From positions 24,841 to 88,840 of the forward strand of contig CANJLD010000008.1 in assembly GCA_947475165.1 (NCBI GenBank): a DNA stretch of 64,000 bases. Reading direction: 5' to 3'. The DNA is from Bacteroidota bacterium (GTDB lineage: Bacteria > Bacteroidota > Bacteroidia > Chitinophagales > LD1). Positions within the stretch are counted from its first letter, which is position 1, and every line of letters starts with the position of its first letter. The position numbers and the translations under genes are program-made. The notes below the pieces were generated by a model that was given only the letters and a program-made list of their open reading frames with translations, did not search any database and had not been told where the DNA came from. Shown here one piece after another: positions 3,433 through 61,521 of this stretch.

Positions 3433-4860
3433 ATGACCAGAGAAGAATATTTAAAACTCACCGCCATATTCGGAGCGGGAAGTTTAATTCCACAAAATTT
3501 GTTGGCTATGTTTTCAGAAGACGAATTAAAGCGAAGCGATTTCGGAAAAGATTTTGTTTGGGGAACCGCCACTGCTGCTTACCAAATTGAAGGCGGCTGG
3601 AATGAAGACGGCAAAGGAGAAAGTGTGTGGGATTATTTTACACACAACAAGAAGAGAAAAATAAAAACCGGAGAAAACGGAGATGTTGCCTGCGATTTCT
3701 ATCACCGCTACGAAAGTGATATCGAGTTGATGCACAAGATGAATATTCCGGCTTCGCGGTTTTCTATTTCGTGGTCACGTATTCTTCCACAAGGAACCGG
3801 TGCTGTAAATCAGAAAGGAATTGATTATTACCATCGCGTTATTGATAAATGTTTGAAAGAAGGCGTAGAACCTTGGGTGACTTGTTACCACTGGGATTTG
3901 CCGCAGGCGTTAGAAGATAAGGGCGGCTGGGCAAATCGTGATTCTATTAAATGGTTTGAAGAATTCGTGAACATAATTTCGAAAGAGTATGGCGACAAAG
4001 TGAAAAACTGGATGGTGTTTAACGAGCCAATGGCGTTTGTTCCGCTTGGTTATTTGATTGGAATGCACGCACCTGGCTATGTCAATTTTGGAAAGTTTTA
4101 CAAAGCAGTTCATCATGTGACTATGTGTCATGGTGCCGGGGGAAGAATAATCCGCGCGAATGTGGCGGGCGCAAATATCGGCACAACTTTTTCGTGCAGC
4201 CATATTGATGCGAAGAATGATAAACCTGCAAATGTAAAAGCAGCTAAAAGAGCAGATGCGTTCATCAATCGTTTATTCATTGACCCTGTATTAGGCTTGG
4301 GTTATCCGAAAAAAGATTTGCCCGCTTGCAAACATATTGAGAAACACATGCAGGAAGGCGATGCGGAGAAAATGAAATTCGATTTTGATTTCATTGGCTT
4401 GCAGAATTATTCAAGAATGGTGATTTATAATCTTGGGCTGATTCCGATTATTCATTTTGCAAACGTGTCGGCAAAAAAACTTGGACACGATGTAACCGAT
4501 ATGGGCTGGGAAGTTTATCCGGAAGGCATTTATCACCTAATCAAAAAATTTGGTGCGTATAAAAACATTCCTAAAATTTACATTACCGAAAACGGTGCAG
4601 CTTTCCCCGATGAAAATATTAACGGAGAAATAAACGACCCGAAACGTACACAGTTTATAAAAGATTATTTGAAACAGGTTTTAAAAGCGAAGAATGAAGG
4701 AGTAGATGTGGGCGGCTACTTTGTTTGGAGCTTTATGGACAACTTTGAATGGGCAGAAGGTTTCCGGCCGCGCTTTGGTTTGGTGGGTGTTGATTTCAAA
4801 ACGCAACAGCGAACCGTTAAAGCCAGCGGCAAGTGGTTCAGCGAATTTTTATCGAAATAA
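3433..4860 (+). CDS. Glycoside hydrolase family 1 beta-glucosidase
   Basis: FVWGTATAAYQIEGGWNEDGKGESVWD, FNEP acid/base and ITENG nucleophile motifs. Confidence 0.95.
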   Translation: MTREEYLKLTAIFGAGSLIPQNLLAMFSEDELKRSDFGKDFVWGTATAAYQIEGGWNEDGKGESVWDYFTHNKKRKIKTGENGDVACDFYHRYESDIELMHKMNIPASRFSISWSRILPQGTGAVNQKGIDYYHRVIDKCLKEGVEPWVTCYHWDLPQALEDKGGWANRDSIKWFEEFVNIISKEYGDKVKNWMVFNEPMAFVPLGYLIGMHAPGYVNFGKFYKAVHHVTMCHGAGGRIIRANVAGANIGTTFSCSHIDAKNDKPANVKAAKRADAFINRLFIDPVLGLGYPKKDLPACKHIEKHMQEGDAEKMKFDFDFIGLQNYSRMVIYNLGLIPIIHFANVSAKKLGHDVTDMGWEVYPEGIYHLIKKFGAYKNIPKIYITENGAAFPDENINGEINDPKRTQFIKDYLKQVLKAKNEGVDVGGYFVWSFMDNFEWAEGFRPRFGLVGVDFKTQQRTVKASGKWFSEFLSK

Positions 4861-4876
4861 TTTCTTGCACAGAAAT

Positions 4877-4910
4877 AAAAAAGCCACCCAAAATGAGGTG
4901 GCTTTTTATT
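4877..4910. terminator. Bidirectional rho-independent terminator between convergent genes
   Basis: aaaaaagccacccaaaatgaggtggctttttatt hairpin with A and T tracts. Confidence 0.8.
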
Positions 4911-4927
4911 TTTTCCCAAACGAAATT

Positions 4928-5137
4928 TTAGTTGGTTACTTCCCAGCTTCCACCGTTTGCTTTGCAATCAGATTGCGCTTGTTTGTATTCGCTGGTTACG
5001 CCAGGAATTAATGTACCGCTCTGGCAAACAGAAGAACTGTTCGAACCGCTGCTGTATTTACAATATCCTCATTTGTTACAAGAAGCTGCAGATACCATAA
5101 GACCAGCAGCCATAAAGGCAAAAAATAATTTTTTCAT
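4928..5137 (-). pseudogene. Small Cys-rich lipoprotein-like gene interrupted by an in-frame TGA (pseudogene, sequence error or recoding candidate)
   Basis: Minus strand: MKKLFFAFMAAGLMVSAASCNK[TGA]GYCKYSSGSNSSSVCQSGTLIPGVTSEYKQAQSDCKANGGSWEVTN*. Signal peptide and lipobox-like Cys lie before the TGA (5069-5071); the frame then stays open for 46 codons to TAA. Confidence 0.6.
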
Positions 5138-5233
5138 AATTGTAGTATTTGGTTTTAGTATGCTTCAAAAATAAAATTCAAAGGCAATAAAAGCAAGTAT
5201 TCGGTAAGAATAGTTCCGTTTTGGTGCTGTCGA

Positions 5234-6634
5234 TTAAAATATTTTCCCGGGATTAAGAATGTTGTTCGGGTCAAATACCTTTTTAATGTCGCGCATCAAT
5301 TGCAATTGCACTTCGCGGAATTTAATATCCATGTAAGGAATCTGAATCCAGCCAATGCCGTGTTCACCCGAAATTGTCCCACCAAGTTCTACTACTTTTT
5401 CAAAAATTTCGCGAATGCCTTTCGGCACTTCGTTCTTCCAATACTCTTCCGTCAGTTCATCTTTTAGAATACGAACATGCACATTCCCATCACCGGCATG
5501 ACCATAACATACGCTGCGAAAATTCCATTTCTTGCCTACCGCTTTTATGTGCTTGAGAAGTTCCGGTAAATCTGCGCGTGGCACAACGGTGTCTTCTTCC
5601 ACCGTCATGTTCGTTTTCTTTACGGCATAAGCAATGTTTCTGCGCATGCGCCACAAATCAATTTTCTGCGCTTCGCTGTCGGCAAAGAGAATTTCGCCTA
5701 CTTCAAACTGCGAAAGCACTTCGTAAATTTTTTCGCAGTCTTTCTGAATTACTTCCAAATCGTTTCCATCTACTTCAATTAAAAGAGTAGCCTGCGTATC
5801 GTCTGCCAGCGGAATAGTTACATCGCCTAAAAACTTCATTACGTATTCCACCGCATCGCGCTCCATAAATTCAATACAACTTGGAATTATTCCTGCGCGG
5901 AAAACCGCACTGACTGCCGCACCCGCATCGTCCATGCTCTTAAAAGGAGCAAGCATTACATTGTTGAATTTTGGATACGGCAAAAGCTTGAGGACAATTT
6001 TTGTAACCACGGCCAGTGTTCCTTCGCTGCCTACAATCAATTGTGTTAAGTTGTAGCCGGTAGAGTTCTTCAAGGTGTTTGCACCGGTCCACATTATTTC
6101 TCCGTTTGGCAATACCACTTCAAGATTCAATACAAAATCTTTTACCACGCCATACTTTACCGCTCTTGGTCCGCCACTGTTGCAGGCAACATTCCCTCCA
6201 ATAAAACTGGTGCCTCGACTTGATGGGTCAACGGGATAGAACAGACCTTTTTCCTGCAAAGTATTTTGCAATGCTTCGGTAATAACTGCCGGTTCTGTGG
6301 TTACCTGCAAATTGCGCTCGTCAATTTTCAGAATCTTATTCATCCGCTCGATGGAGAGCATTACACCACCGTGAACGCACAAGCTATTAGCACTTAAACC
6401 GGTACCTGCTGCACGGGGCGAAACCGGTATCAAATTCTGATTACAGTATTTTAAGATGACAGAAATTTCCTGCGGAGTAATTGGCTTGATAACCACTTCA
6501 GGCGGAAAGCTTACACCATCGGTTTCATCGCGACTGAATTTTTCGATGCTGGCTTCATCGGTAAAAACATACTCCTCTCCCACTATGGTTTTGAAGTGCG
6601 TTAAATCTTCGGCTGTAATTTTTTTGTAACTCAT
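5234..6634 (-). CDS. FAD-binding oxidoreductase, GlcD-like (glycolate/D-lactate dehydrogenase family)
   Basis: PRAAGTGLSANSL, GGNVACNSGGPRAVKYGVV, GHAGDGNVH, GEHGIG and NPGKIF motifs. Confidence 0.93.
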   Translation of the reverse strand: MSYKKITAEDLTHFKTIVGEEYVFTDEASIEKFSRDETDGVSFPPEVVIKPITPQEISVILKYCNQNLIPVSPRAAGTGLSANSLCVHGGVMLSIERMNKILKIDERNLQVTTEPAVITEALQNTLQEKGLFYPVDPSSRGTSFIGGNVACNSGGPRAVKYGVVKDFVLNLEVVLPNGEIMWTGANTLKNSTGYNLTQLIVGSEGTLAVVTKIVLKLLPYPKFNNVMLAPFKSMDDAGAAVSAVFRAGIIPSCIEFMERDAVEYVMKFLGDVTIPLADDTQATLLIEVDGNDLEVIQKDCEKIYEVLSQFEVGEILFADSEAQKIDLWRMRRNIAYAVKKTNMTVEEDTVVPRADLPELLKHIKAVGKKWNFRSVCYGHAGDGNVHVRILKDELTEEYWKNEVPKGIREIFEKVVELGGTISGEHGIGWIQIPYMDIKFREVQLQLMRDIKKVFDPNNILNPGKIF

Positions 6635-13484: not shown

Positions 13485-15815
13485 ATGAAACACGCCTTTA
13501 CCATTCTATTCGTTTTTCTTTGTTCTGTTTTTGTCATAGCACAGACACCTCATAAATTTAATTATCAGGCAATAGCTCGTGATGTTTCAGGGAATGGACT
13601 TTCCAATCAAAATATTTCAGTTCGGTTTACCATTCGCGATATTTCGGAAACCGGTCCTATTCTTTATCAGGAAAAGCAAAGTCCTACTACCAATCAATTT
13701 GGCTTGTTTAATACACTTGTTGGTGATGGAGTGATTTCTATGGGAAGTTTTTCTGCTATCAACTGGGGAGTGAATCTGAAATACATGCAGGTGGAGTACG
13801 ACCCTTCCGGAGGAACTAATTATCTACTGGTTGGTTCGGCACAATTAGTTAGTGTGGCTTACGCGCTTTATGCAGAAACTGCCGGTAATGGAGGTGGAGG
13901 AAGTACGGGGGCAACAGGTGCTACCGGAGCGGCAGGAAATACAGGAGGCACTGGAGCTACAGGGGCAACCGGTGCTACTGGTCCTGCTGGAAACGGAAAT
14001 GTGCATGGAACGCTTAATTACATTTCGAAGTTTACTCCTGACTCATCTTCGCTGGGCAATTCAAGAATATTTGATGATGGACATTATACCGGTATTAACA
14101 CCAATACTCCCGAAGCGCATTTGCATTTAAAAGGTGATACAGGAACCACTTTGCTGCTTACAAATTCAAGTACTGCAAATGGTTTTTCCATAAATCAGCT
14201 TTCCGATTCGGGAACGGTGGGTTTAATAAATAGCGAGCACAAAGATTTATTTATAAGCACCAATGCCAATGAGCGGATGCGCTTTACTAAAGATGGTTTA
14301 GTGGGAATAGGGACTTCCTCCCCCACACACGATTTAGTTTTGGTTACTCAAACCGGTTCTCCTACTTCTTTACAAATAGTTTCCGCGCTTACAGGGCAAG
14401 GTTCCGCTGACGGTTTGTTACTCGGACAAAGCGAAGCGTTTGGAACAAGTATGTTGATGAACCAGGAAAATAAAGGATTGCTTTTCGGAACAAATAATCT
14501 GGAAAGAATGAGAGTTACCGAAGCCGGTAAGGTAGGAATCGGGCTTACCAATCCATCGCGCGAGTTGGTAGTATCAAATGCTTTTGATACTTCAAGCATC
14601 CAATTGATTTCCTCAGTAACCGGTGCAGCTAAAACAGATGGCTTTGTTATAGGGCAGATGAATAACACCGGAGATATTAAATTGATGAACTACGAAAACG
14701 AAGGAGTGTTGATTGGAACAAACGCCACTCCCCGCGTTATTGTTTTGCAGGATGGAAAGGTCGGTGTGAATGTTCTTTCACCGGTAAATGATGTAGTGGT
14801 AAAAAGCGCATCGTCTTCGCCTTCTAAGTTTCAAATCGTTTCCGACTCCACCGGTGTCGGCCCTACAAACGGATTATTGATTGGCCACACATCTTCTTCC
14901 GGTGCTGCTGTAATAATGAATTACGAAAATCAACCACTAAGTTTCGGAACAGCTTCACAGGAAAGAATGAGAATTACAAATAACGGCAAGATTGGAATCG
15001 GTTTGATTTCTGCTTCGCCTGTTTATAATATAGATGCCGCTTTTAATACGGATGCCGTTCTTCGTCTACGCGGTCAGGATGGAAGTTTCAACCGCTCGCT
15101 TTTAATATTAGATAAGACAAGTGCTGCGAACGACCAGGCTGCGGTGCAATACAGTTTGAATGATTCGGCACAATGGTTAGTGGGCACACTCAACAACAGC
15201 ACGTATCGCATTTTTAATTTCAACACCGGCAACGATGCCTTCTCCATCAATTACGCCAACGATAATGTAGGCATAGGCACACCTTCCGCTTCTGCTAAAT
15301 TGGAAGTAAACGGTCAACTAAAAATTACCGGTGGTGGACCGGCTGTTGGCAAGGTGCTTATTTCAGATGCTAACGGGCTTGCATCATGGGGAGAAGATAA
15401 TCCTAAAAAGGGTTTCAGCGCTTACAGCACTTATGGATTGCTAAGTATAGACAATGCAACAGAAACTCCTCTGCTTTTTGATAATGTAGATTTTAACGAT
15501 GGCAATTATTACAATTCAACAACCGGTAGTTTCGATGTATTAAGCGAAGGCATGTATCATTTTGAGGTGCGTGTAATCTGGAATCCGCTTTCGGTGAGCG
15601 GTGATGCTGTTCTTGCTTTTCGTGTTAACGGAGTAATTGCACAGCAAGTTCGCGTAACTGTTTCTACTGGTGCACTACCACAGCACCTTTCAGCTAACTT
15701 TAAATTGTATGCCGGTGACCGTGTAGATGTAATAGTTAGTCAAACCAGCGGTGCTCCGCAAGACCTTAATCTTACTCAACCGGAGAATACTTTTACCGGC
15801 TATAAAGTTTATTAA
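13485..15815 (+). CDS. Secreted fibre-like protein: collagen-like Gly-X-Thr region, ~77-aa tandem repeats, C-terminal C1q/TNF-like head
   Basis: GATGATGAAGNTGGTGATGATGATGPAGNG; repeated GLLxGxxx...NxExxLxxGTNxxxRMRxTxxGKVGIG; C-terminal GFSAYST...GMYHFEVRVIWNP...LYAGDRVDVIV. Confidence 0.85.
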   Translation: MKHAFTILFVFLCSVFVIAQTPHKFNYQAIARDVSGNGLSNQNISVRFTIRDISETGPILYQEKQSPTTNQFGLFNTLVGDGVISMGSFSAINWGVNLKYMQVEYDPSGGTNYLLVGSAQLVSVAYALYAETAGNGGGGSTGATGATGAAGNTGGTGATGATGATGPAGNGNVHGTLNYISKFTPDSSSLGNSRIFDDGHYTGINTNTPEAHLHLKGDTGTTLLLTNSSTANGFSINQLSDSGTVGLINSEHKDLFISTNANERMRFTKDGLVGIGTSSPTHDLVLVTQTGSPTSLQIVSALTGQGSADGLLLGQSEAFGTSMLMNQENKGLLFGTNNLERMRVTEAGKVGIGLTNPSRELVVSNAFDTSSIQLISSVTGAAKTDGFVIGQMNNTGDIKLMNYENEGVLIGTNATPRVIVLQDGKVGVNVLSPVNDVVVKSASSSPSKFQIVSDSTGVGPTNGLLIGHTSSSGAAVIMNYENQPLSFGTASQERMRITNNGKIGIGLISASPVYNIDAAFNTDAVLRLRGQDGSFNRSLLILDKTSAANDQAAVQYSLNDSAQWLVGTLNNSTYRIFNFNTGNDAFSINYANDNVGIGTPSASAKLEVNGQLKITGGGPAVGKVLISDANGLASWGEDNPKKGFSAYSTYGLLSIDNATETPLLFDNVDFNDGNYYNSTTGSFDVLSEGMYHFEVRVIWNPLSVSGDAVLAFRVNGVIAQQVRVTVSTGALPQHLSANFKLYAGDRVDVIVSQTSGAPQDLNLTQPENTFTGYKVY

Positions 15816-19784: not shown

Positions 19785-20615
19785 TTAGTGAGGGTTGTTC
19801 ATATTAGGGTAAGTGCCCGTTTTCTTTTCTTTCGAAATTTTAATGATGTGCTCGCGGTATTCTTGCTGGTTAAATGAATCGGGGAATTTGTAATCCTTGC
19901 CATACAGGCGGTCGAATTCGTTGGGCTTGAATACAAAATACCAGTTGCGGAGTTTCATTTGGTAGTGATAATCGTCTGCAATAGCGTTGCCGGTGTTTGG
20001 TTTGGTTGGTTTTTCTAAATCAATTTCCTGACCTATAAACTTTGGCAGGTAGGGGAATTTGAAATAGCCGGTGTAGTAAGGATTAAGCGAGGTGAGTTCA
20101 GGAGCGTTTAAGAAATGCTCATATTCTTCGGTGTAAAGGCGTTGCCATGCACCAATCTTTGCTTCGTAGTCGGCAAGTTCTTTGTCGGCATCGTTCTTTA
20201 AGTTTGGAAGCGGGAAGTGCGGGAACAACTGGTTTCTTTTTGCATCGGAAATGCCGGATGCTTTATACCATTGATAAAGCGAATGAGGGAATTCCTTTTT
20301 GGTTTCGGGAAGAACAAGACCTAAGGTGCCCCAGGCAATGTTGAGTTTTTTTACTGCCAGAAGGTTAGTGAAGTTGTTCCATTCTGTGCCGTTGCTTTTA
20401 ATAAAGGAGTTAACATCTTCGGTTTTGTAATCCTTATTCTTTACCACTTGATAAAGGCGCGGGAAGTCTTTTTTCAAAGATTCTTTATCCAGATTGGCGG
20501 TAACAAATACCTGTTCGAAAGGCGTTGAATTAATTTGAGCCGAAAGGTTGAAGGCAAGGGCGAAAAAAAGGAGGCAGAGAAGCCCTCTTCTTTTGGGAAA
20601 GTAAAATTGAACCAT
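19785..20615 (-). CDS. Hypothetical secreted protein
   Basis: 276 aa, signal peptide (LLCLLFFALAFNLSAQ), aromatic-rich; family not recognised. Confidence 0.7.
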   Translation of the reverse strand: MVQFYFPKRRGLLCLLFFALAFNLSAQINSTPFEQVFVTANLDKESLKKDFPRLYQVVKNKDYKTEDVNSFIKSNGTEWNNFTNLLAVKKLNIAWGTLGLVLPETKKEFPHSLYQWYKASGISDAKRNQLFPHFPLPNLKNDADKELADYEAKIGAWQRLYTEEYEHFLNAPELTSLNPYYTGYFKFPYLPKFIGQEIDLEKPTKPNTGNAIADDYHYQMKLRNWYFVFKPNEFDRLYGKDYKFPDSFNQQEYREHIIKISKEKKTGTYPNMNNPH

Positions 20616-20830
20616 GAGAGTTAATTTATTTAGTGCTTAAATACCTAACAAAGAAATTCAAAATTTTGAAAGTTTAAAGGATTCCTTTTGTATGAGTATT
20701 GAGATGTAAAATAAGTTGCACGCATGCACATGAGCGCTGCTCAGATGCCGGAGCTGCATTTTTGCGCCAATGGCATGCTTGTACCATACAGCGCAGGCTG
20801 CAGCCGAGGGTGAGCGGAATAAGAAGGAGC

Positions 20831-21050
20831 ATTTTAAGAGCCGGAATTACACGCTTAAGAGCGGGTATTACATTCTTAAGAGTTTAGCTGACACTCTTAA
20901 GAGTGTGAGTGACACGCTTAAGAGCCGAGCTGACATGGACAAGAGTAAGTTTAACATTCTTAAGAGCGCGTATGACACGCTTAAGAGTTAATCTGACACT
21001 CTTAAGAGCGTGAGTGACAGGCTTAAGTGTGAGCGCGACCTTCTAAAAAA
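20831..21050. repeat. Degenerate 21-bp tandem array (about 10 units), consensus nnnnnntgacacncttaagag
   Basis: Units start at 20841, 20862, 20883, 20904, 20925, 20946, 20967, 20988, 21009, 21030. Confidence 0.93.
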
Positions 21051-21200
21051 CAGGATTGACGTACTTACTAACTTTATTGCTGTTTTTAAGAAGGGGAATG
21101 ACAAAGACCGGAACTACGATTTATGTGATTGAAGGATTGGAGGCATGATTAAAGGCAGGAGCATCTTGCCTTGAAGTATATTTGCCATTAAGAATTTACG

Positions 21201-21234
21201 CTTTTTGCCTCACCCCCCGGCCCCCTCTCCATGA
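21201..21234. repeat. Direct-repeat copy 1 of 'cttttt-gcctcaccccccNgccccctctccatga'
   Basis: Nearly identical to 22481-22514; followed by ggagagggggtgg and caccccgcccttcgggcacccctcctgttaggagggg palindromic sequence. Confidence 0.8.
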
Positions 21235-21461
21235 GCCTCATCCGGTCTTCGACCACCTTCTCCTGCCAGAGAAGGGAAAAGGAATTAAATGCAGTTTGTT
21301 TGGAGAGGGGGTGGATACAAAACCACCCCGCCCTTCGGGCACCCCTCCTGTTAGGAGGGGAAAATGTAAAATTTTGCAAAAATGGTTTTGTTGACGCAAT
21401 GCGGAAATGTTGATGGCGTTTTTAGGTTGTAATTATTTTTTAAAACCTAAACCAAATTAAG

Positions 21462-22421
21462 ATGGAAGCCATTGTAAAAAATGAGTACCCATGCGCTCAG
21501 AAAGACGCTTACAGCGTGCTTGAAACAGCATGGGGCAATTATGCAACGCATATTGCTCCTTTTACTAACTACAAACCAAGCAAGTATATTCTTGCGCTAG
21601 CTGCCACTGCCAAGCTACGAATAAAGGCAGCGCGTGAGTTGCCGGATTTTCAGGCGCGAAGCGGGCTGGCAGAGGAATTGAAAATAATGGTGGGGCAGAA
21701 AGCCACCTTATGCTTGAATGATTTTCAGTTATTGAAGGGATATATTGATGAGGCCTTTAAGGGAGACAATATTGCTTTACGCAAACCGAATTATGAAGAG
21801 GCAGGACAGTTGTATTACCGAGAGGCTGCGCAAAATGATTGGGAGAGTGTGCAGAGTTTGGGTGACTCGATGAAGGGATATATTGACAGTAAGCTGGCGG
21901 TGCTTACTACCGATGGTGCGATGCCGGGAACTTTTGAAGGAGAGGTGGAAGGCAGGAGATTGCTTTTTGAAGAAAAGTATGCTGCTTTTAAGGCGGCAGA
22001 GCAAACGCAAGTAGCCACCGCAGAAAAGGTGACTGCTACGAATGCCTGTTACCGCGAGGGAATGGATATGATGAAGGACGGGCAACGGGTGTTTGTGAAT
22101 GACCCTGACATAAAATCGTTGTTTGTGTTTGCGAGTTTGCTGGATATGATTAACCCGAAGGTGGCAGGCATAAAGGGACGGCTACAGGATAGTGTAACGA
22201 ATGTGAATTTGACCGGAGCAACGGGAACGTTTACACCGGAGGGCGAACCGGCAATTATTACAGAAACGGATGAGAATGGCGAGTATGCTGTGTTGCGATT
22301 ACGCGCGGGAACTTACCAGGTGAAGTGGGTGCTGGCAGGTTATATTATTTTGGAGGATACCGTGGTGATTGAGTTGCAAACGGTGAAGACGAAGAATTAT
22401 AAGCTGGTGGCGAACCCGTAG
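21462..22421 (+). CDS. Hypothetical protein with C-terminal carboxypeptidase-regulatory-like (Ig-like) domain
   Basis: GTFTPEGEPAIITETDENGEYAVLRLRAGTYQVKWVLAGY. Confidence 0.75.
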   Translation: MEAIVKNEYPCAQKDAYSVLETAWGNYATHIAPFTNYKPSKYILALAATAKLRIKAARELPDFQARSGLAEELKIMVGQKATLCLNDFQLLKGYIDEAFKGDNIALRKPNYEEAGQLYYREAAQNDWESVQSLGDSMKGYIDSKLAVLTTDGAMPGTFEGEVEGRRLLFEEKYAAFKAAEQTQVATAEKVTATNACYREGMDMMKDGQRVFVNDPDIKSLFVFASLLDMINPKVAGIKGRLQDSVTNVNLTGATGTFTPEGEPAIITETDENGEYAVLRLRAGTYQVKWVLAGYIILEDTVVIELQTVKTKNYKLVANP

Positions 22422-28664: not shown

Positions 28665-29198
28665 ATGGACAATAGGCAAGGAAAATTCCAAATTCCAAAT
28701 TCCAAATTCCAAATTGGGAGATTCTTCATTTACTCATTTACTTGTTTAGTCATTTGCGGGTTACTGTTTTCGTCTTGCGATAAGAATGTGGTGATGGAAA
28801 GCCAGCAGAACGTGGTGAACAACAAATGGGATTATGCCGATGCCAAAACTTTTACGGCAGAAATTACCGATACTGTTCAACATTATAACATAGCCGTAAG
28901 TCTTCGCCACGGTTTTAATTTTGAGTGGCGCAACGTTTGGGTGAAAATTGAAACTACTTTCCCTGATGGTAAAACATATGAAAGAAGAGTAAACCTCGTC
29001 CTCTCCGGACCGGATGGTGTTTGGAATGCCGACATACTTGGCGATAACTGCGATATTCTAATTCCTATTCAGGATAATGCTTTCTTTCCTCAGGTGGGCA
29101 AATACAGTTTCAAAATTTCGCAGGATATGCGCGTGAACCCGCTGGGGTATGTAAAAACTGTAGGAATGCGGATTGAAAAATATTCTACTCCGAAATAA
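28665..29198 (+). CDS. gldH: Gliding motility lipoprotein GldH
   Basis: Lipobox SSCDKNVVMESQQNV, NNKWDYADAKTF, GldH-like body and downstream position from PSP1 gene. True start uncertain because the N-terminus is repeat-derived. Confidence 0.85.
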   Translation: MDNRQGKFQIPNSKFQIGRFFIYSFTCLVICGLLFSSCDKNVVMESQQNVVNNKWDYADAKTFTAEITDTVQHYNIAVSLRHGFNFEWRNVWVKIETTFPDGKTYERRVNLVLSGPDGVWNADILGDNCDILIPIQDNAFFPQVGKYSFKISQDMRVNPLGYVKTVGMRIEKYSTPK

Positions 29199-35968: not shown

Positions 35969-36292
35969 TGTAATGGTTTTTATTTGGTTAATAATGGTTA
36001 CGCTGTTGTCAGATTTTGTGCCAACGCAAAAAAATATTTTGCAAAAATGATGCTTTGGTATAAACTAAACTTTAACGCAGTGCAAATAAAACTCAATACC
36101 AGCAAGGGTTTCGGTGACTATCGTCATACACAAAAGAAATTTTTATCAGTAATTTAATGAGTTTAGTCCTGTGGCAAGTATGTCAGAACGAAATGGCAGA
36201 GCCGACCTGATTTGGCAGAAAACATTTGAAATTTAGAATTTGGAATTTGGAATTTTTGCCTTTGAAATTGTATTTTCATTCAAAATTATCCC

Positions 36293-38030: not shown

Positions 38031-38078
38031 TCCGTTACCTCGTTTCCACCTTCCGTAATAGTAAAACGAAGCTTAGTT

Positions 38079-38251
38079 GCGTCATTTCTGTATGGAAATG
38101 CGTCAACCCAATGCGGAAATGCGTTAGCCCAATGAGGAAATACGTCTTACCAATGTTGAAATTCGTTAACCAAATTCCGGTTCGCGTTAACTGAATTACA
38201 CTTTACGTCATCTGATTAACAAAATGCGTCAACCCAATTACACTTTACGTC
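38079..38251. repeat. Degenerate 21-bp tandem array (8 units plus partial), consensus rcgtyaacccaatnnsgaaat
   Basis: Units at 38079, 38100, 38121, 38142, 38163, 38184, 38205, 38226, partial at 38247. Confidence 0.93.
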
Positions 38252-38328
38252 AAAAAAGTTTAGATTTGAGCCTTCTAACCAATAATTTACCTCTTTTCAG
38301 CTAAAAAACACTCAAAATCAATCTATAT

Positions 38329-38760
38329 ATGGCATTTCTAACACCCAAAGAAGAACCTAAGAAACAAGTTTGGCAAAAGCCTGTTCCAAGTCATGCATCT
38401 AAACCCGCAATGATTGGTCCGGTGATTAAAAGAATGGCAGAAGAAAAAAACATTCTTCCTTCAGAACTGGAAAGGCGATTGGGCATGAGCGACCGCAACA
38501 TCTATCGCCTTTTCAGAGCCAAAACCCTTAGCATGAAACAGTTTTTTGCGGTAAGCGAAGCACTGGAAGAAAACCTCCTGCTGCATTTTGACCCCAATGT
38601 AAAGCCACTGCCAAACCCACTGCAAGCCGAGCTGGATGAACTAAAAGCAGAAAACGAAACACTTAAAGCGCAACTGAAAGAGCTTTCACCACTTGCCAGC
38701 GAAAACATAGTGCTGAAAGGGCAATTGGATGTTTTAAAGGAAGTGATGAAGGGGAAATAA
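38329..38760 (+). CDS. Helix-turn-helix protein with C-terminal coiled coil
   Basis: LPSELERRLGMSDRNIYRLFRAKTLSMKQFFAVSEAL; ELDELKAENETLKAQLKEL. Confidence 0.75.
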   Translation: MAFLTPKEEPKKQVWQKPVPSHASKPAMIGPVIKRMAEEKNILPSELERRLGMSDRNIYRLFRAKTLSMKQFFAVSEALEENLLLHFDPNVKPLPNPLQAELDELKAENETLKAQLKELSPLASENIVLKGQLDVLKEVMKGK

Positions 38761-42993: not shown

Positions 42994-43637
42994 ACCTCGC
43001 ATCTAAAATTGACCACACGCTGTTAAAGGCAGATGCATCTGAAAAAGAGGTGAAGAAAATTTGTGCCGAAGCCAAAGAGTTTGGATTTGCTGCGGTGTGC
43101 ATTCCGCCATATTTTGTTCGCAAATGCAAGTTGTGGCTTACAGATACCAATGTGAAAGTGGCAACTGTTGTTGGCTTTCCGTTGGGTTATGCGCACACTC
43201 CTGCCAAAGTTGAAGAAGCACGAAGAGCTATTGATGAAGGTGCTGATGAAATTGATATGGTCATTAATATTATTGCCCTGAAAGCCGGTGACTGGAATTA
43301 TTTAAAAAATGAATTGACCAGTGCGGCAACAATTGTTCAGTTGCGCGGTGGCAAACTGAAAGTAATTCTGGAAACAGGATTGCTTACCGATGCAGAAATT
43401 ATTAAGGCGTGCGAATTGTGCAAAGAAATGACTGTTGATTTTGTAAAAACCTCTACCGGTACTATTCAGCCTGGTGCAACGGTGGAAGTTGTAAAATTGC
43501 TGAGAGCAAATCTCCCTAAAACAATTAAGATAAAAGCAAGTGGCGGAATACGCGATAAAGAATTTGCTTTGCAACTGATAGAAGCAGGTGCCGACCGGTT
43601 AGGTTGCTCTGCGAGTGTAAGTATAGTTTTAGAATGA
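42990..43637 (+). CDS. deoC: Deoxyribose-phosphate aldolase
   Basis: IDHTLLKADA, VVGFPLGYAHTPAKVEEARRAIDEGADEIDMVIN, KTSTG, KASGGIR. Confidence 0.95.
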   Translation: MNLASKIDHTLLKADASEKEVKKICAEAKEFGFAAVCIPPYFVRKCKLWLTDTNVKVATVVGFPLGYAHTPAKVEEARRAIDEGADEIDMVINIIALKAGDWNYLKNELTSAATIVQLRGGKLKVILETGLLTDAEIIKACELCKEMTVDFVKTSTGTIQPGATVEVVKLLRANLPKTIKIKASGGIRDKEFALQLIEAGADRLGCSASVSIVLE

Positions 43638-44077
43638 AAGTTCAAAGTTCAAAATTCAAAATTCAAAGTTTGCAGAGATTAGTTTTTCTGTCTTGTGTCT
43701 TATGTCTTATGTCTTATGCCTGTTTCTCCCAGGATAGTACAGCGGTTGGTGGCAACAAAAATTTTACAGTTAAGCAGGAACCTCAAATAGCTTCGCTGCT
43801 TTATAAATACAAAGAATACAACCGCAAGCGCGAGTTTGCCGAAGGTTTCCGCATTCAGATAATGTACACTGATATTCGCGATGACGTTTACAAAAGCAAA
43901 GGGGCGATGTATAAAGAGTTTTCTGATTTGAGTTCTTATGTGGAGTATGAGCAGCCGTATTACAAGTTGCGGTTGGGTGATTTTAAAACAAGACTGGAAG
44001 CCACCTATTACTTGCAGCAAGTGATAACTTTATACCCCGGTGCTTTTATTGTCCGCGACAAAATCAAGATTAAATAA
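43634..44077 (+). CDS. SPOR-domain-like secreted protein
   Basis: GFRIQIMYTDIRDDVYKSKGAMYKEF...YYKLRLGDFKTRLEA; start overlaps deoC stop (ATGA). Confidence 0.7.
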   Translation: MKVQSSKFKIQSLQRLVFLSCVLCLMSYACFSQDSTAVGGNKNFTVKQEPQIASLLYKYKEYNRKREFAEGFRIQIMYTDIRDDVYKSKGAMYKEFSDLSSYVEYEQPYYKLRLGDFKTRLEATYYLQQVITLYPGAFIVRDKIKIK

Positions 44078-45250: not shown

Positions 45251-46510
45251 TTATTCCACCACCAATTTCCCGCTCTTCAGTATTTCGTTCGCAGAATTTT
45301 TTAGTTGATAGAAATAAACACCCCCCGGTAATCCATTCACCTCAATTTTAGATTTTAGATTTTGGATTTTAGATTGAAAAATAATCTTCCCGCTTACATC
45401 TGTCATTACGAGATTACTTCCCACCAATTCATTGCCAACTGTAAACTGCCAAGTGCCAGCCGAATTCGGATTCGGAAATACAGAAACTGAAATTTCATTC
45501 TTCAAATCTTCAACTCCTGTAGAGGCACTTGGAGTAATTTCTAAAATTCTTATTGGCATTCCGTCACTCCAATTTCCCATGCCATGTTGTTCAGGTGTAT
45601 CACCAAAAGCGTATTCGCAATTTTGATTAAGAAGCGCACAATCCATCAGTGCATCCTGCAATTTCCAGGTGCCGAAATAATCAAATGCATCTACCGGTCC
45701 GTTGCCCGATGCAAGAATGAAAAGATTTGACTCGCCATTATCAAAAGCCGCATCACCTGCAAGCGGGTCAAAATGCGAAGCGGTTATTGCAGGAGAACCA
45801 TGACTATCTCCATATGTATGCACTAAATTTTTATGCGAAGTGGGCGCATTAACCGACTGATTATAAATGGTAGTGCCCGGTGCGGTGCCTACAATAATAT
45901 CATCCTGACTTACCAAAGCCAGATACGGAATATCGGCAGGAAAATCAGCGTAAGAGTTCATTAAAAAAGAGGCGGCACCAGGCTGCATGGAAAACGCACT
46001 CAAAGGTTTCGGCAGGCCATACTGCCGATACAACATACTCATGTTAGCCGTAAGCACACCACCCACCGAATGACCGAGAACGAAAAAATTTTCTCTTCTG
46101 CCTTTCACATGCCCTGCTTGCTGAATGGTATCTAATGCGCGTTGAATTCCTTTTGCGCAACTATCATTAAAAGTTGTGTTATCTGCATTCAAATCTTTTT
46201 GGTAGCGCGGATAAATTACAATGTTGCCCTTGCGAACTAAATGCTTGATAAATGCTCCGTAAAGTTTCGGGTTGGTTTCGCCTAAACCGTGAATGAAAAC
46301 AACAACGTTTGCAGAATCGGGGGTTGGCGTGTTTGGTTCATACAACCAAAAATCGCCACCACTCCCGTTGGTGCCATAATCGTATTGAGTTACACCGCCA
46401 AAAGTATAATCACTTCCACCGGGACCGGATGTAGGTTGAGTTGGCTGAGTAATTTGTGCGGATAGAGAAAGCGAGAGAAGAACTGCGAACGAAAGTAGAA
46501 GTTGCCTCAT
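45251..46510 (-). CDS. Alpha/beta hydrolase-type secreted protein with T9SS type A sorting domain
   Basis: VVFIHGLGETNP, LGHSVGG; C-terminal VFPNPNSAGTWQF; start set at MRQLLLSFAVLLSLSLSAQ. Confidence 0.85.
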   Translation of the reverse strand: MRQLLLSFAVLLSLSLSAQITQPTQPTSGPGGSDYTFGGVTQYDYGTNGSGGDFWLYEPNTPTPDSANVVVFIHGLGETNPKLYGAFIKHLVRKGNIVIYPRYQKDLNADNTTFNDSCAKGIQRALDTIQQAGHVKGRRENFFVLGHSVGGVLTANMSMLYRQYGLPKPLSAFSMQPGAASFLMNSYADFPADIPYLALVSQDDIIVGTAPGTTIYNQSVNAPTSHKNLVHTYGDSHGSPAITASHFDPLAGDAAFDNGESNLFILASGNGPVDAFDYFGTWKLQDALMDCALLNQNCEYAFGDTPEQHGMGNWSDGMPIRILEITPSASTGVEDLKNEISVSVFPNPNSAGTWQFTVGNELVGSNLVMTDVSGKIIFQSKIQNLKSKIEVNGLPGGVYFYQLKNSANEILKSGKLVVE

Positions 46511-60966: not shown

Positions 60967-61521
60967 ATGACAATAAACAAGACGCTGTTGTCTAGCGTCT
61001 GTTGTCTATTGTCTATCGTCTGTTTCTCCCAACTCAATTACGATTACACGGCCGGAAAATTTATGATTAAAGGAAAGGTGGTAGATGTGCAAAGCAAGGC
61101 TGTCATTCCTATGGCAAATATCGTTTTTGTAAAAAATGGCAAAGGGGTCAGTTGCGATAACGAAGGCAATTTTACGATGTATGTTTATAAAACCGATACC
61201 ATTAAATTTTCATCTACCGGTTACATCTCCAAAATAATTCACATGAACGATATTGACTCAAGCAGATATTATACGCTTGAGATTCAACTGATACACGATT
61301 TTGTTAAGATGAAAGATGTTATTATTTATCCTTTCCGAACCAAAGAGGAATTTATTGATGCGTTTATGGAAGCCAAAGACATAAACAAAATAAGTATTGC
61401 AGGAATTGCTCCGCCTAAGTATTCTCATATTACACCTAAGGCTAAGTTCAGCAATCCTATTTCGTTCCTCTACGACCGGGTAAAAAAACGCAGAGCAGCT
61501 AATCCTGAGTTTAAGCCATAA
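60967..61521 (+). CDS. Secreted protein with carboxypeptidase-D-regulatory-like domain
   Basis: Signal peptide LLSSVCCLLSIVCFSQ; MIKGKVVDVQSKAVIPMANIVFVKNGKGVSCDNEGNF; alternative start 60943. Confidence 0.75.
   Translation: MTINKTLLSSVCCLLSIVCFSQLNYDYTAGKFMIKGKVVDVQSKAVIPMANIVFVKNGKGVSCDNEGNFTMYVYKTDTIKFSSTGYISKIIHMNDIDSSRYYTLEIQLIHDFVKMKDVIIYPFRTKEEFIDAFMEAKDINKISIAGIAPPKYSHITPKAKFSNPISFLYDRVKKRRAANPEFKP

Follow-up and report, generated by a model that had tools for sequence, protein, structure and literature searches.

The window, by which we mean the whole stretch of 64,000 nucleotides that was analysed, contains an intergenic gap of 846 bp (20616-21461) that separates two divergent genes and matches the gap of about 850 bp in the original prediction. 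On the minus strand, 19785-20615 encodes a hypothetical protein of 276 aa. The gene on the other side (21462..22421, plus strand) belongs to a family that we call F1 and encodes a protein of 319 aa with a pI of 5.1, comprising a helical N-terminal part and a CarboxypepD_reg-like C-terminal domain with no obvious signal peptide. Within the gap sits a tandem array of about 11 units of 21 bp with the consensus TTAAGAGCGGGAATGACACGC (20834..21067, no strand assigned), located by TRF, lag identity and a column profile; the F1 gene starts 394 bp downstream of it.

TRF reported a period of 63 at 20830-21008 and periods of 21 and 42 at 20834-21027. Over 20834-21067 the lag-21 identity is 0.62 and the lag-42 identity is 0.66. 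Both methods agree with the 21-bp units originally placed at 20831-21050, except that the array runs slightly further, to about 21067. The column profile reads TtAAGAGc..g..TgACa..C and contains a conserved block in each of its two helical turns, TTAAGAG in one and TGACA in the other; individual units carry CTTAAGAG and TGACA blocks, and the edge units are degraded. The perfect 16-bp palindrome that had been predicted at 20891..20906 (no strand assigned) is read directly in the sequence as ACACTCTTAAGAGTGT, inside the array, and the unit profile as a whole is more dyad-symmetric than expected (z 2.1, p 0.04). The units are contiguous, without the unique spacers that separate CRISPR repeats. 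At 0-1 mismatch the unit core occurs at a single locus in the whole genome, and other arrays are unrelated to it in sequence.

The region between the array and the F1 gene (21068..21461, plus strand) contains a GC-rich repeat-like stretch at about 21200-21360 (CCCCCCGGCCCCCTCTCC ... GGAGAGGGGGTGG). Short pieces of it reappear at three further sites, including one a short way downstream of the F1 gene. No inverted repeats were found when 21130-21461 was searched. TRF also located a second 21-bp array in the window (38078..38253, no strand assigned), with about 8 units, a TGCGTCAACCCAATG.. core and a sequence unrelated to the first. This second array is an orphan, with neither an F1 gene nor a gene of the F2 family described below beside it; an alpha/beta-hydrolase gene lies on one side and a small HTH/coiled-coil gene (38329-38760, plus strand) on the other. 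A collagen-like repeat with 9/18/27-bp periods (13904-13981) lies within a coding gene (13485-15815).

A class of arrays and two protein families

The host genome (G000) is a 3.9-Mb assembly in 45 contigs, from which we sampled stretches totalling 659 kb, including about 75 kb of predicted intergenic DNA; genes were called with our own simple codon-usage caller. Intergenic tandem-repeat periods in this sample are almost exclusively 7, 21, 42 and 63 bp. The sample contained some 20 arrays with a 21-bp period, each of 3 to 16 units and with a unit sequence of its own, which suggests about 100 arrays when scaled to the whole genome. The array at 20834-21067 thus belongs to a class, namely intergenic tandem arrays whose unit is 21 bp, sometimes 22 bp, and whose sequence is private. 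The original prediction gave the absence of comparable arrays as grounds for abandoning it; many were found in the same and in related genomes. Three genomes of the same genus (G007, G009 and G005) have fewer than the host, and none of 21-bp period was seen in 120 kb of G015 or 80 kb of G018, both of the same family. The genomes examined are largely metagenome-assembled, so tandem arrays may be mis-assembled, and several loci stop at contig ends.

Much of this census is what neutral minisatellites would give. These would be arrays that replication slippage or unequal exchange makes out of any sequence present; the helical geometry of the replication or repair machinery would favour 21 bp, and the arrays would have no selected function. 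The sequences are private, edges are degraded and ABAB superperiods occur. About 16 of the 20 sampled arrays have no F1 or F2 neighbour, many of these orphans lie beside unrelated genes, and the gaps (5 divergent, 3 convergent, 11 co-directional) indicate no orientation preference. Arrays of 7 bp, a class attributed to polymerase slippage (Mrazek 2007, as cited in PMC4679880), are also in excess in this genome. We nevertheless consider a purely neutral origin unlikely. It does not predict the association across families that follows, nor conserved blocks once per turn together with an excess of dyad symmetry.

Most F1 homologues fetched for synteny have a 21-bp array upstream, with unrelated sequences. 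The F1 proteins share the architecture of the window protein and are mostly acidic. The F2 family was first met adjoining an array in the host genome, and its association with arrays resembles that of F1. Its members are of about 210 aa, with a pI mostly near 10, a helical N-terminal part and an Fn3-like C-terminal part. Homology between F1 and F2 was not detectable (hhalign E 0.17). Searches recognised only C-terminal beta-sandwich domains in the two families and no DNA-binding domain; nor did these neighbours have a replication initiator domain. Single-sequence AlphaFold2 models were unusable (mean pLDDT 39 and 32). A mobile or phage origin was rejected: single F2 queries had no match in the phage and plasmid collections and matched one 29-residue piece in viral contigs, where F1 queries matched nothing.

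An array was scored as associated if it had a 21- or 22-bp based period and a score of at least 24 inside the fetched locus (about 1.5 kb either side). Such an array accompanies F1 at 24/33 loci (12/18 in the genus, 12/15 outside it) and F2 at 34/54 (20/29 and 14/25), counts that are somewhat inflated by relatedness since the sets are search matches. At RicT control loci, drawn from partly different genomes, the figure is 3/52 (Fisher p against the F1 and F2 sets between 2e-6 and 2e-9). Two of the three control matches (L101, L105) fall inside predicted genes, which would make the control rate too high rather than too low. The arrays are thus strongly associated with F1 and F2 genes and usually lie upstream (52 of 58), most about 50-400 bp from the start codon; the other six are just downstream, five of them past the stop codon of F2 genes within the genus. 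At about one third of the F1/F2 loci the flanking 1.5 kb is free of arrays. The F1 gene in the window is not an accidental neighbour of its array. This association with the downstream gene family is the strongest feature of the locus and is absent from the original prediction.

The association extends to the most distant genomes sampled, G380 and G443, which belong to the same phylum but lie beyond the host's class and have 21-bp arrays upstream of F2. In 184 kb of one genome (G111) there is a single real array, and it adjoins F2. In another (G176) both F2 loci have 22-bp arrays, with no other 21- or 22-bp array in 400 kb. This had raised the suspicion that the period is a genome-wide property, which was discarded because G107 and G128 each contain arrays of both periods, 21 and 22 bp. 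We note two individual loci. At L062 an array (3744-3885) lies between a divergent pair formed by a ribosomal protein S1-like gene and an F1-like gene (4343-5551; 403 aa, E 3e-8 to the F1 profile). Beside one F2 array, a segment of 643 bp (L233 198-840; L235 reversed, 253-889) is inverted between two species; it is bounded by short inverted repeats and is a possible invertible element.

The array sequences change quickly. Where F2 homologues are at least 74% identical, the array sequence is recognisably shared (z 4.3 to 15.7). At 92% protein identity (L181 and L187) a GGAAT core is kept while much of the remaining unit has changed. L186 and L230 have only array, leader and gene in common. In F2 pairs at 58% and 64% identity the array sequence is unrecognisable, yet both members keep an array at a similar distance. 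The sequence is thus lost between proteins that are still this similar, while the period (21 or 22 bp), the helical phase and the neighbouring family are kept over large distances. Cis elements do not usually conserve their architecture without their sequence, and the pattern points either to DNA recognition that co-evolves rapidly or to a need for helical phasing only.

Coding potential, helical phasing and dyad symmetry

The original prediction raised the possibility of a decayed coiled-coil gene, from a heptad frame that meets one TAA and then continues. Such a frame is present (20770..20991, plus strand; 73 aa, TAA at 20989-20991, continuing to 21132), and as one long frame with SDTLKS heptads it does give the coding reading, a heptad-repeat protein or a pseudogene of one, something to rest on. 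The codon-position bias proposed as a check is absent: there is no 3-bp periodicity in the window array (p = 0.49), nor in 36 arrays of the class pooled, F1-linked and orphan arrays included (z = -2.7). Stops occur in all six frames of the window array. No full-length homologue of the heptad frame exists in 61 genomes, a collection of genome contigs was likewise without a match, and protein family and homologue searches with the heptad protein gave nothing convincing. The sole protein-level match (G010, E = 9e-4) is weak and is itself a 21-bp array. That array (L010, 1458-1703) reads as SNALKS heptads and lies in a convergent gap. We therefore do not regard the open heptad frame as a gene but as a chance one, and the decayed-gene reading was rejected; the window array, F1-linked arrays and orphan arrays are non-coding. 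A coding origin in general strikes us as extremely improbable. What else speaks for it is a subset of F2-linked arrays (L186, L189 and L228, less clearly L230 and L231), in which a 3-bp signal accompanies an open forward frame that reads as hydrophobic heptads; unlike the other arrays, these may possibly encode protein. Stop-codon depletion was assessed by within-column shuffling, a null that ABAB linkage inflates on both strands. As a practical consequence, 'hypothetical proteins' with heptad repeats may be artefacts where they have been called on arrays of this kind.

The arrays are direct repeats at a constant spacing of two helical turns, and conservation within the unit follows the helix. 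Measured column by column in 36 arrays, diversity rises and falls along the unit with a 10.5-bp period (column permutation as the null, z = 8.8), and in 16 of the 36 this period is the spectral maximum. Against an AR(1) null in which the correlation between neighbours was matched, the signal has P <= 0.0025. Simulated neutral slippage produces a flat spectrum, unlike the real arrays, which again argues against the neutral account. A further 25 arrays, the majority of them from other genera, reproduced the signal (z = 4.4). In 22-bp arrays the oscillation has an 11-bp period (z = 4.2), and F1 arrays from beyond the genus show the helical-period signal with z = 5.2; in the pooled F2 arrays the 10.5-bp signal is weaker. 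The period was not picked post hoc, since the original prediction had named it beforehand as placing all units on one face of the helix. That part of its regulatory reading is borne out by the 10.5-bp conservation, the intergenic location of arrays genome-wide and the dyad excess without arm covariation; the regulatory role itself is only proposed.

Bent DNA was considered as the property under selection. In a roll/tilt model the periodic arrays are more curved than shuffled DNA (end-to-end ratio 0.955 vs 0.983), but not more than column-permuted periodic arrays (0.949, mean rank 0.53), and curvature as a selected property was therefore rejected. The comparison bears on a variable-number promoter element, in which copy number, or curved or phased DNA, would tune the downstream gene and any two-turn-phased sequence would suffice. 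The upstream location of 52 of the 58 F-linked arrays fits such an element, as does a sequence that is replaceable when the period is not. Besides the curvature result, the five F2 arrays downstream of their gene and some orphan arrays in convergent gaps do not fit, and we judge a promoter element of this kind distinctly unlikely.

Unit profiles have dyad symmetry in excess (Stouffer z = 10, arrays pooled), whereas covariation of the two arms within units was not found (Stouffer z = 1.1). This combination is more in keeping with dimer sites on DNA than with stems in RNA. A transcribed array could still form a ladder of hairpins: as a single strand it forms a better fold than shuffled sequences do (z -3.3 and -3.8), and many units are palindromic. 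Yet both strands fold equally well, as palindromic repeats would, compensatory arm changes are missing, many F1 arrays are without dyad symmetry, and there is no Rfam match. Structured RNA thus appears a very improbable explanation.

A proposed platform for protein binding

We propose that the array serves as a platform on which binding sites for a protein stand in helical phase, and that it forms part of an array-plus-gene locus that is as yet undescribed; we consider this proposal to have an even chance of being correct. Each array would present roughly 8-15 sites in the DNA, alike in orientation and lying on a single face of the helix. A protein would contact two patches in each unit and assemble cooperatively along the array at the two-turn pitch, with a recognition that is specific to the array or locus and quick to change. 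The most likely binder would be a protein of the same locus, or an architectural partner. For F2-linked arrays the basic F2 protein itself (pI ~10) is a plausible candidate; the mostly acidic F1 proteins may not bind DNA themselves. The adjacent gene would be the likely target, or the likely source of the binder. Because most arrays lie so close upstream of a start codon, the most likely effect would be on transcription of that gene.

Several observations count against the platform reading. They include the orphan arrays (about 16 of 20), F1/F2 loci that have no array, and the five downstream F2 arrays. To these are added the acidity of most F1 proteins, the lack of a recognised DNA-binding domain in F1 and F2, and the weak 3-bp periodicity of some F2 arrays. 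A broader form of the proposal is offered tentatively, and we hold it to be somewhat doubtful. The arrays would represent a widespread, undescribed type of Bacteroidota locus, in which an array of two-turn units, fixed in period but with a private sequence that changes fast, has as its partner in cis a small helical/beta-sandwich protein specific to that array; several mutually independent pairs would coexist on one chromosome, and orphan arrays would be free targets or relics. Literature searches, which covered few subscription journals, found neither the array class nor its association with F1 and F2 described. We rate the locus type as categorically new and its mechanism as only proposed. 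The association provides a first functional handle on the F1 and F2 protein families.

The arrangement may be compared with known systems. Plasmid iterons are Rep-binding direct repeats of about 17-22 bp, placed head-to-tail beside a gene, with the bound proteins on one face. The arrays are like them in being two-turn, head-to-tail repeats beside a gene, but are chromosomal and many per genome, each with a different sequence; their neighbours are not Rep-like, and F2 has no match in the plasmid collection. In centromeres of the ParR/parC type, sites that each span about one or two helical turns are arranged in tandem beside a small protein gene, and they are sequence-specific and fast-evolving. 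This geometry is common to both, whereas the arrays have no ParM/TubZ partner and occur several to a chromosome, and the F1 and F2 proteins, with their helical and Fn3 or CarboxypepD_reg-like parts, have no recognised DNA-binding fold.

BrickBuilt of Porphyromonas gingivalis is an intergenic minisatellite/MITE with a 23-nt unit of conserved and variable parts and predicted long stem-loops; it forms one family of 19 copies with a shared sequence, and some copies have terminal inverted repeats (PMC4596501). Both it and the present arrays are intergenic tandem repeats in Bacteroidota with partly variable units. Unlike BrickBuilt, each of the arrays has its own sequence and a 21- or 22-bp unit and is tied to protein families; the same repeat at dispersed loci, as expected of a MITE, was not found in the host genome. 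Heptanucleotide simple repeats are intergenic tandem repeats of a few 7-bp units, such as the TAACTGA repeats (Mrazek 2007; PMC4679880). The 21-bp arrays differ from them in having no 7-bp sub-periodicity and in their helically spaced conservation. The 7-bp arrays of the window do resemble these heptanucleotide repeats, 7 bp being the other over-represented intergenic period of the host genome. They lie at 28683-28715, 36224-36255, 43637-43721, 45345-45375 and 60988-61021 and differ in sequence (AAATTCC, ATTTGGA, AAAGTTC/TGTCTTA, ATTTTAG and TTGTCTA).
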